Of a stretch of 43,710 bases of DNA, positions 38,578 through 42,032 are shown piece after piece. Under the pieces are notes generated by a model. It did no database searches and had not been told where the DNA came from. It saw nothing but the letters and a program-made list of their open reading frames with translations. The first letter of the stretch is position 1. Each line of letters begins with the position of its first letter. The DNA lies in NCBI GenBank assembly GCA_019309545.1, contig JAFDGA010000017.1, forward strand, positions 1 to 43,710, written 5' to 3'. The stretch is from Deltaproteobacteria bacterium (GTDB taxonomy: Bacteria > Desulfobacterota > Desulfobaccia > Desulfobaccales > Desulfobaccaceae). The translations under genes were made by a program, and so were the position numbers.

Positions 38578-38682
38578 ACGAAAAAATTCGAAAGGGTGAA
38601 AACTTGGTCGGATCAGCCTGCAGATTTATGCGACTAGCTGGTGAACCAGACGGTTATCAACCGCCTACAGGATGACACCAAT

Positions 38683-39600
38683 ATGGCAAACGAGGAAAAA
38701 GAGATAAGAGATCGGGGTGAGGCCCAATCCAGTCACTCGGCGGACCTGTCGTCTCCTCTGCATCTGAAGATCTCCCAAATCGGGAAAGAAAAGACCGTAC
38801 CAGCCCATACCCTGATCGTCAAACAGGGTGAGATCCCGGAACATTTTTACGTCATTCGCCAGGGACAGGTTCAGGTCTTCCGGGAGACCCGAGACCACAT
38901 CCGCACCGAACTTGCCGTCCTGGGGCCGGGAGCCTATTTCGGGGAACTGGCCCTGGTTACCAATCAGCCTCGCACCGCCTCGGTGGAGACACTGGAAGAG
39001 ACCCGGCTTATCGAGATCACCCGCGCCGAGTTTGACCAACTGCTGGATGACAACCCGCAATTAGCCCGTGTGATCATCAGGCAGTTGACGCAATGGCTGG
39101 TGGAAGGTGACAAACGCCTGGAAACTCAGGTGGTGCGGCAGGTCCGGGTGCGGGAAATCTCCTGGTTCGATTATATGTTGCTGTTAGGATTGAGTGTGAT
39201 TCTGGCAATCATCTTTAACTTTTCCAATCCTAATGGTATCCCCCTGGTGCCCCATTTCTGGGCTCAGGAACCAGTACCCCGGGTCGACCTGGCCCAAGCC
39301 TATAATGACTACAGTCATCAGCAAGCCCTGTTTATCGATGCCCGGCCCACCAACTTTTACGATCAGAAGCATATTAAGGGGGCCGTTAATCTGCCCTTGC
39401 CATTATTTGATTTTATTTATACCATGCGTCTCAGCCAGGTTGATAAAGACAAACCCTTGATTGTCTATGGCCGTAACATCAGCCGGCATTACGACGACGA
39501 TGTGGCCCGCAAACTCATATTGCGCGGGCACACCAATGTCAAAGTGTTGGACGCCGGAGTAACGGCTTGGGAAAAAACCAATTATCCGACGGAGCCCTGA
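38683..39600 (+). CDS. cNMP-binding, membrane and degenerate rhodanese-domain protein
   Basis: 305 residues. A cyclic-nucleotide-binding domain (about 30-140, with EHFYVIRQGQVQVF and the cassette GAYFGELALVTNQPRTASVE) is followed by one membrane helix (about 168-188) and a rhodanese domain (about 205-300). The rhodanese active loop reads VYGRNISRHY where active enzymes have a Cys, so sulfur transfer is unlikely unless another residue serves. ATG 38683 with AGGA upstream is preferred to GTG 38641. The next gene, DoxX/MauE-like, starts 3 bases after the stop. Probably a ligand-sensing membrane scaffold; role unknown. Confidence 0.82.
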   Translation: MANEEKEIRDRGEAQSSHSADLSSPLHLKISQIGKEKTVPAHTLIVKQGEIPEHFYVIRQGQVQVFRETRDHIRTELAVLGPGAYFGELALVTNQPRTASVETLEETRLIEITRAEFDQLLDDNPQLARVIIRQLTQWLVEGDKRLETQVVRQVRVREISWFDYMLLLGLSVILAIIFNFSNPNGIPLVPHFWAQEPVPRVDLAQAYNDYSHQQALFIDARPTNFYDQKHIKGAVNLPLPLFDFIYTMRLSQVDKDKPLIVYGRNISRHYDDDVARKLILRGHTNVKVLDAGVTAWEKTNYPTEP

Positions 39601-39603
39601 ATT

Positions 39604-40080
39604 ATGATTAACCTGTTGGCTGCCATATGGCGCAGTCCTTATACCGCCATTGTTTTCCGTCTGGTCCTGGGGACTTCGTTTATCGTCGCCCCTATGTATA
39701 AAATCGTCTATCCCGGTGAGTTTGCCGAGAATGTGGCTGGCTTTCAGTTGGTTCCCTATCTGGGGGTCAACTTTATGGCGGTGATTATGCCCTGGATTGA
39801 GCTGGTTACCGGCTTGTTCCTGATCCTGGGTATTCGCACCCGGGCCGCAGCCTCAATCATCGGTGCCTTATTGATCGTCTTTACAGTGGCCATTGTCATC
39901 AACCTGGTTCAGGGCACCCCAATTAACTGCGGCTGCTTCGAGGCCGTGGGCGAACCTCTCGACTGGTGGCTGGTCATCCGGGATGTGGGGATGTTGATCA
40001 TGGCTATACAGATTATCCTCTATGATCGTCTCTTTATCTTTGACCGGGGCGGCTTTATCTTACGGGAGAAAAAGATATGA
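39604..40080 (+). CDS. DoxX/MauE family membrane protein
   Basis: 158 residues with four hydrophobic helices and the conserved NCGCFE pair of cysteines, typical of MauE-like DoxX proteins that support periplasmic thiol-redox or cofactor assembly. Three bases after the cNMP/rhodanese gene and overlapping the lipoprotein start (ATGA), so the three form an operon. Confidence 0.82.
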   Translation: MINLLAAIWRSPYTAIVFRLVLGTSFIVAPMYKIVYPGEFAENVAGFQLVPYLGVNFMAVIMPWIELVTGLFLILGIRTRAAASIIGALLIVFTVAIVINLVQGTPINCGCFEAVGEPLDWWLVIRDVGMLIMAIQIILYDRLFIFDRGGFILREKKI

Positions 40081-40430
40081 GGGTATACCGAATTCTGTGG
40101 CTGGCCTTGGCCGTCCTCTTCATTTGTGGGGCCTTGGGGTGTAAATCACGAACCCCCTATACGGGTAAATACGTAGCTGAGGTCAAAAAGCCTTCTCCCA
40201 AGCAGATATTTCTGGAACTTAAAGCCGACGGTGAAGGCTCCTGGACCATAGAAAGCCAGGAGGTATCCTTCCGTTGGGAAGTCAAAAATGGCGACATCTG
40301 GCTCCATACCAAAGGCGGAGGGGTGATTATCGGCACTCCGGTAGGTGAGAAGTTATTTCTGGACCTCTCGGGTGATATTAGGCCGGGTGGTAAGCGGCTG
40401 GAATTTAAGCGCCTGCCCGAGGGAGGATAA
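40077..40430 (+). CDS. Small predicted lipoprotein
   Basis: 117 residues with a signal peptide ending in the lipobox GALGC (Cys at about 22) and a small beta-rich domain (YTGKYVAEVKK, GEGSWTIESQEVSFRWEV) like the cradle of small DUF-type lipoproteins. Starts by ATGA overlap with the DoxX/MauE gene. No specific function recognised. Confidence 0.75.
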   Translation: MRVYRILWLALAVLFICGALGCKSRTPYTGKYVAEVKKPSPKQIFLELKADGEGSWTIESQEVSFRWEVKNGDIWLHTKGGGVIIGTPVGEKLFLDLSGDIRPGGKRLEFKRLPEGG

Positions 40431-40522: not shown

Positions 40523-41716
40523 GTGGCAAATCTACCCATGGGGATCAATTTGGTAAAAAAAGCAAACCTGCGACGTTTAGGGGGATTGACTCTGCTTTGG
40601 CTTCTGGGACTTGGAGTTTTACAGGCCCTGCCTGCCGACCCGCGAGTTCTCCGCTTAGGACTGAGCCGCGTGCAGGATACTACCTTATTGACCGTAATCT
40701 TAACCCAGTCCGTGGAGGCTCGGGTATCGGCTGTGACTGCGGTCAGCACTCCCCAATTAATAATCATCTTCCCGAACGCGGTGGCGGCTCATCTGCCCTT
40801 AGATCTGCCGGGAGATCAGGCTTTGGTCCGGCAGGTCCGCACTTTGTTTACTCCTGGCCGGAAAGGGGTACGGATTATCCTTGATCTAATTCCTGGCCGT
40901 CCGTACGTTTTCTGGCGTCAACTCCGTCCGGGGCCTGGCGGCATGGTCCAATTCGTTATCGGTCTGAATCCAGAGACCCGCGAGGAAAGCCACCCGTCGC
41001 CTGGGCTAATCTTAACCAGGCGGCCTCGGCCTCCTAGCTCGGCTCCGCTGGCGGCCCGGAAGTCTTCACCGGTCGGTGATTATGGTTACAAGATAGCTCC
41101 AAGGCGACTGGAAAGTGAGGATTTCCGAGAACTGGGGCGATTGGCGCCGGGGGCGGCTGGAGTGTTGCACGTTTTGGAGAAGCAAGGCTGGAAGGTGACC
41201 CATCAGAGTGAATCGGACCGGCCTGGTCAGCGACTTATCCAGAAATTTGTTTTAACTAATCCCCGGTACCCCATCCTAACCGTCCGGTTTACCCATATCG
41301 CGGGCAGTTCCGCCGCTTCCCCGGACATCAATTTTATTACTTTGGCCACCGACAATCTTACCGGTTCCGAGGCCCAGCGTTACCGGGAAATGTGCCAATG
41401 GTCCACCAATCAGATCAAGAAGCATTTTGAAGACATCGGCGACTATTACAGTGATGGCTTGAAACCCTTGCGGATCATCCTGCGTCGACAGAGTCAGGCC
41501 GAGGCCCTGCGGAATTTTGAGGTCTTTCGTCAGTTTCTGACCGCAGCCGTTCCCCAGCACCCCCAACTGACCGATGATTTGTTGGCCCACCTGAAAGAAA
41601 AGGTCAACCAACGCCTGGAAGGGGTCCAGTACACTCTTTCCGAAAATCCTTTGGTTATCTTAAATATGGAAGATTTCCTCTTTACGCGCGTTTATTTTTT
41701 GGGCCAAGTTAGTTAA
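40523..41716 (+). CDS. AMIN-domain secreted protein
   Basis: About 397 residues (GTG 40523, or ATG 40538). A signal peptide (about 20-38) precedes an AMIN-like beta domain (about 40-150, VILTQSVEARVSAVTAVSTPQLIIIFP and GVRIILDLIPG), a domain that targets periplasmic proteins to peptidoglycan or secretin assemblies. A proline-rich linker (155-195) leads to a C-terminal helical region of unknown type (QSQAEALRNFEVFRQFLTAA). No amidase catalytic domain is present. The selenoprotein gene follows 13 bases later. Confidence 0.72.
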   Translation: MANLPMGINLVKKANLRRLGGLTLLWLLGLGVLQALPADPRVLRLGLSRVQDTTLLTVILTQSVEARVSAVTAVSTPQLIIIFPNAVAAHLPLDLPGDQALVRQVRTLFTPGRKGVRIILDLIPGRPYVFWRQLRPGPGGMVQFVIGLNPETREESHPSPGLILTRRPRPPSSAPLAARKSSPVGDYGYKIAPRRLESEDFRELGRLAPGAAGVLHVLEKQGWKVTHQSESDRPGQRLIQKFVLTNPRYPILTVRFTHIAGSSAASPDINFITLATDNLTGSEAQRYREMCQWSTNQIKKHFEDIGDYYSDGLKPLRIILRRQSQAEALRNFEVFRQFLTAAVPQHPQLTDDLLAHLKEKVNQRLEGVQYTLSENPLVILNMEDFLFTRVYFLGQVS

Positions 41717-41729
41717 AGAGGTGAGCGTC

Positions 41730-41945
41730 ATGACCGAAACTATCAAAATTTACGGCAAGCACACTTGACCTTTTACCCAGCGAGCCCGGGAGGCTCTGGG
41801 CAAGGAAGGCAAATCCATCGTTTATCTGGATGTAATCCAGGATTCCCAGGCTTTGACAGAAATGTTGACCCTGACCGGGGGTAAACGCCGGGTCCCGGTA
41901 GTGGTCCAGGGGGATCAGGTCACTATCGGTTTCGGAGGGTCTTGA
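41730..41945 (+). CDS. Selenocysteine glutaredoxin-like protein (Uxx-star type)
   Basis: A 71-residue protein with an in-frame UGA at codon 13 (41766-41768), invisible if UGA is read as stop. The N-terminus MTETIKIYGKHT-Sec-PFT puts Sec where glutaredoxins have the first Cys of CPYC. The middle (YLDVIQDSQALTEM, RRVPVVVQGDQV) follows the glutaredoxin fold including the cis-Pro, and it ends in GFGGS. A stem-loop, the expected bacterial SECIS, follows the UGA. GAGGTG precedes the ATG. This fits a glutaredoxin-like (seleno)protein family of unknown target. It shows the organism inserts selenocysteine (SelB route). Confidence 0.85.
41776..41800 (+). promoter_or_regulatory. Bacterial SECIS element candidate
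   Basis: A hairpin starting 7 bases after the UGA: CCCA pairs with TGGG and GAGCC with GGCTC, with a 2-base bulge (GC) and the loop CGGGA. Position and size fit the bacterial SECIS that binds SelB just after the Sec codon. Confidence 0.65.
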
Positions 41946-42032
41946 AAGGTATGACCGGCTCGCCAGTTAGGCGGCCTCTCGATAATTTCAAAGCATGTTG
42001 ATCCGACCGCGGCTTCGTAGGAAGAGGTTGAG

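Follow-up and report, generated by a model that had tools for sequence, protein, structure and literature searches.

We identified, in a 43,710-nucleotide stretch of DNA (hereafter the window), a gene that is best explained, with a probability of roughly 0.93, as encoding a UXX-star family 1 selenoprotein of 74 residues, in which selenocysteine (Sec) would be inserted at UGA codons 13 and 72. On sequence evidence, the identity of the locus as a double selenoprotein gene is very nearly certain. An earlier note had proposed a UGA-containing selenoprotein gene at this place. Its Sec13 stands, but it overlooked a second Sec codon with a SECIS element of its own as well as the actual stop codon, and the gene end that it placed at the UGA at 41943–41945 is wrong. 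This UGA is almost certainly a second Sec codon rather than a stop, with the frame continuing to 41954.

Gene structure and family assignment

The features of the region are as follows.

40523–41716, plus strand: upstream gene for a weakly AMIN-like protein of 397 aa, adjoining the selenoprotein gene in 22 of 22 class loci compared
41718–41725, plus strand: Shine-Dalgarno-like ribosome site AGAGGTGA, seen in the sequence, 4 nt before the ATG at 41730
41730–41954, plus strand: predicted gene for a double selenoprotein of UXX-star family 1, with 74 codons and a stop (from translation and NF041114 match)
41766–41768, plus strand: UGA predicted as the first Sec codon (U13, in the UPFT motif), where glutaredoxins have their catalytic Cys
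41776–41800, plus strand: candidate SECIS 1, hairpin CCCAGCGAGCC-CGGGA-GGCUCUGGG with its loop at 41787–41791 (from fold, pair counts in 46 relatives and the constraints of PMC13188914)
41943–41945, plus strand: UGA predicted as the second Sec codon (U72, in the C-terminal GGSUKV-stop; from UGA in 52 of 52 distinct relatives, and profile score and coverage)
41952–41954, plus strand: true stop codon TGA, with TGA, TAA or TAG at the same place in relatives
41957–41976, plus strand: candidate SECIS 2, hairpin GGCUCGCC-AGUUA-GGCGGCC, in which a single U is bulged and the loop lies at 41965–41969 (from fold, conservation and covariation)

The gene product reads MTETIKIYGKHT-U-PFT…GFGGS-U-KV-stop, or in full MTETIKIYGKHTUPFTQRAREALGKEGKSIVYLDVIQDSQALTEMLTLTGGKRRVPVVVQGDQVTIGFGGSUKV. 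Much of the anatomy given in the earlier note agrees with the sequence, namely the good ribosome site ahead of the ATG, the 12 codons ahead of the first UGA and the 58 sense codons past it, the stem beginning 7 nt after that UGA, and the 13-nt gap from the stop of the upstream ORF. After the second UGA, the frame continues as AAG-GTA-TGA.

The NCBIfam equivalog model NF041114, "UXX-star selenoprotein family 1", has a curated cut-off of 72 bits, which the product exceeds in a match to the whole model. With codons 73 and 74 translated as well, the score is 104.8 bits over profile positions 1–70 of 70; with a translation that ends at codon 72, it is 101.4 bits over positions 1–68. Because the score rises and the profile becomes fully covered once codons 73–74 are included, we read UGA 72 as Sec. 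The anatomy agrees with the name "UXX-star" (Sec, two residues, stop): the model's UxxT motif with Sec near the N-terminus is present as U13-P-F-T, and the second Sec lies two residues before the stop, as in 51 of the 52 distinct loci compared below (three codons in the remaining one). UXX-star families 2 and 3 (NF041211 and NF047338), related glutaredoxin-like models of the same group, are matched more weakly, at 51 and 62 bits against cut-offs of 100 and 97.

The glutaredoxin-like features that the earlier note had recognized are far beyond chance (NF041114, E 2e-30; Pfam PF00462 Glutaredoxin, E 4.9e-11, 43.1 bits against a gathering score of 22.9). The expectation that standard annotation would miss this gene is right for plain gene finders and wrong for the NCBI annotation library, where NF041114 is a curated model of this very family.

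Conservation of the UGA codons and their candidate SECIS elements

The source genome carries one NF041114-type gene. In a profile scan, matches above the cut-off occurred in 100 of the 395 genomes of the phylum and in 23 of the 29 genomes of the class, and a scan of named genomes found further relatives in a Desulfobacca MAG (81% identical), in Acidobacteria and in Pelotomaculum. At one locus (L066, G380:C16) there is a tandem pair of UXX-star family 1 genes, with two TGAs each and approximately 425 bases from start to start. Four other loci (L077, L085, L087 and L088) encode a variant in which an insert precedes the C-terminal Sec (the sequence is GDVSLRGGIPLFGGTU-like) and site 1 reads CPFC, UPFC or UPYC.

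For comparison of the two Sec sites we used 52 distinct loci, the window's own included. Homologues with Cys or Sec at codon 13, whose existence the earlier note had named as a check on its proposal, are present: site 1 is UGA in 46 loci and Cys in six. All six Cys relatives retain UGA at site 2, which is UGA in 52 of 52 loci, a count to be read with the sampling in mind, as these loci score best against a model built on Sec forms and relatives with a C-terminal Cys may be underrepresented. The invariant residues are G9, K10, U/C13, P14, A19, V35, M45, V55, P56, G67 and U72. Beyond the second UGA, codon 73 specifies Gly, Lys, Arg or Ala and codon 74 Val or Ile, followed by the stop (with an extra codon in one locus). 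The third base of codon 74 is free (GTG 15, GTC 15, GTT 13, GTA 5). Freely varying third bases beside constant residues, as seen in codons 73–74, are a hallmark of translation.

Each UGA is followed by a hairpin that could serve as its SECIS element. The review PMC13188914 gives rules for bacterial SECIS elements that include a loop of 3–9 nt, an upper stem of 4–16 bp, a G in the first two loop positions, a distance of 16–37 nt from the UGA and an MFE of at most -7.5. Both hairpins conform to these rules. SECIS 1, inside the coding region, has its loop 18 nt from the first UGA, and SECIS 2, beyond the stop codon, has its loop 19 nt from the second; the folded stretches have energies of -18.1 and -16.1 kcal/mol, respectively. 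An Rfam scan of the whole window at gathering thresholds returned two tRNAs only.

The SECIS 2 hairpin (fold z -2.35) is found at the right distance in 48 of the 52 relatives, 47 of them with a G in the first two loop positions, whereas 11 other offsets in the gene, taken as a control, give 5–24 hairpins, and 0–16 with the loop G. Pairing is maintained in 89.5% of cells, with 75 both-side changes and six of the seven pairs changing on both sides, and the covariation score is 0.499, compared with 0.214 for shuffled and at most 0.132 for slid alignments. A role as terminator was considered for this hairpin and rejected: a run of at least five T follows it in only 3 of 53 loci, and the codons past the UGA are conserved.

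SECIS 1 is strong in the window itself, where nine pairs form in the fold. Counting pairs of the named structure in 46 relatives, 80% of cells are paired and the score is 0.236, where shuffled alignments give 0.134 and slid ones no more than 0.134. RNAalifold found no consensus pairs for SECIS 1, the named-structure count being its one line of support across relatives, and a strict five-pair rule detects it in only 15 of the 46. It is weaker outside the class, and coding constraint confounds its pairing.

A G+C-rich hairpin directly after a UGA looks, in bacteria, like a terminator, and could therefore suggest that only Sec13 is real, with UGA 72 an ordinary stop and the hairpin an intrinsic terminator. 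We consider this very improbable. Past UGA 72, the encoded amino acids are conserved although third bases are free, and any of the three stops then follows; the UGA at codon 72 is invariant, whereas real stops vary; the loop G and the distance fit a SECIS; and the curated NF041114 model reaches two residues beyond the UGA. Still more improbable is a broken glutaredoxin pseudogene that acquired its UGAs by chance. In-frame UGA codons and an active site without Cys are what such a relic might present, but the same two UGAs recur in 46 of the 52 relatives, across several phyla and with the protein sequence otherwise conserved, and the Sec machinery is complete (see below). The evidence thus favours a gene with two Sec codons.

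Selenocysteine machinery and gene neighbourhood

Sec machinery in the genome had been named as a further check, and the full selA, selB, selC and selD set required for a bacterial selenoprotein gene is present: selA (E 7e-185), selB (by profile search), selC as a tRNA-Sec with anticodon UCA, and selD, whose own frame has an in-frame UGA near its start, as expected for a Sec-containing SelD. Since selA was found in 355 of the 395 genomes of the phylum, its presence is uninformative as a discriminating test. In the proposed mechanism, SelB and tRNA-Sec would decode both UGA codons, the second by way of the SECIS beyond the stop.

Four genomes (G065, G095, G290 and G319, at least 97% complete; loci L049, L051 and L100–L107) carry UXX-star genes above the cut-off, with two TGAs in the best match of each. 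A search for selA (TIGR00474) gave no match in any of the four, one of which (G065) is a single contig; selB is above its cut-off in all four and tRNA-Sec in three. The ORFs tested near selB (in G065, G095 and G290) and near tRNA-Sec (in G065) are not selA. These genomes may use another route to Sec-tRNA, or the search may have missed the gene.

The upstream gene had been described as encoding an AMIN domain, which is weakly supported: the window protein has no match in Pfam even at E 10, and the matches of its relatives to PF11741 (E 0.019 and 0.24) fall short of the cut-off of that family. No member of this protein group that was tested has a Pfam family above cut-off. Across the flanks of 22 class loci (L018, L024 and L027–L046), the C-terminal half of this protein of approximately 400 residues is strongly conserved (EDIGDFF...LKPLRVKLR). 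Ahead of it, window positions 38641–40430 hold genes for a cNMP-binding/rhodanese fusion, for a protein of the MauE/DoxX type and for an uncharacterized protein of 117 residues. The Desulfobacca MAG carries an equally ordered set of ORFs that differ little in size from these, and a locus from the same genus (L018) seems to keep this order. The neighbourhood was considered as a guide to function and set aside, being constant only within the class. Because neighbours differ elsewhere, a functional link between them and the selenoprotein gene is no more than suggestive.

Predicted function and relation to known systems

An AlphaFold model of the protein (pLDDT 90.8) shows a glutaredoxin fold of the order beta-alpha-beta-alpha-beta-beta, with little chain left past the fourth strand, and among solved structures it is closest to glutaredoxins, NrdH and the thioredoxin-like BC3987. 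We infer that the protein is a small thiol/selenol oxidoreductase with a truncated glutaredoxin fold, probably using both of its Sec residues. Sec13 occupies the position of the glutaredoxin catalytic Cys, and the second Cys of the CxxC motif is absent (UPFT), which is why Sec72 could be cast in a resolving or partner role. The attack on the substrate would be made by Sec13, with Sec72 as its resolving partner in a diselenide, or in a selenylsulfide where residue 13 is Cys; we put this scheme forward tentatively, with somewhat less than even odds. A little more speculative is the idea that the C-terminal Sec, not Sec13, is the indispensable group, with the two forming a diselenide pair and the SECIS in the 3′ UTR being free of coding constraint. 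It is suggested by the exchange of site 1 for Cys while site 2 is UGA in every locus compared.

The protein could instead be a real double selenoprotein that binds a metal or metalloid through its selenols without exchanging electrons. PMC13188914 raises the possibility that the Sec of UXX-star proteins coordinates a metal or acts on substrates yet to be identified, and the motif without a second Cys would suit such a role. However, the glutaredoxin fold, the position of Sec at the catalytic Cys and the intact cis-Pro VP motif point towards redox chemistry, and no metal-resistance gene was identified among the part of the neighbours covered. Metal binding is therefore unlikely, although far from negligible, and an oxidoreductase role is preferred.

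Both the family and the presence of two Sec in its members are on record. Table 1 of PMC13188914 (a 2026 review) has an entry 'Distant Grx-like protein 1 (UXX-star selenoprotein family 1)' for NF041114, with UxxT and 2 Sec, and the review traces the family to Zhang and Gladyshev 2008. The present gene is thus a well-supported added member and the phenomenon is not new, so that as a discovery it adds little; what this analysis contributes is the second Sec codon of this gene, its corrected stop at 41954 and the covariation evidence for a SECIS beyond the stop. A protein of only 74 residues that spends two selenocysteines also offers a simple experimental case for asking why. Our gene resembles the family in its full-length match, UxxT motif, two Sec and C-terminal U-x-x-stop; codon 73 is Lys here, whereas Gly is commonest in the family, and nothing marks a new kind.

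With glutaredoxin 3, NrdH and a cyanobacterial glutaredoxin the protein shares a common fold (Foldseek TM 0.71–0.77, query-normalised). Compared with classical glutaredoxin 3 and NrdH, the cis-Pro region is alike, but the protein is shorter, its model lacks the C-terminal helix past the fourth strand, UPFT replaces CPYC and there is an additional C-terminal Sec. The SECIS of Escherichia coli fdhF resembles the hairpins described here in its UGA-to-loop spacing, a bulged U in the upper stem and the loop G, most clearly in SECIS 2. The fdhF element lies within its coding region, whereas SECIS 2 sits past the stop codon, and the covariation provides clear evidence for a SECIS in this position in the gene of a 74-residue protein.
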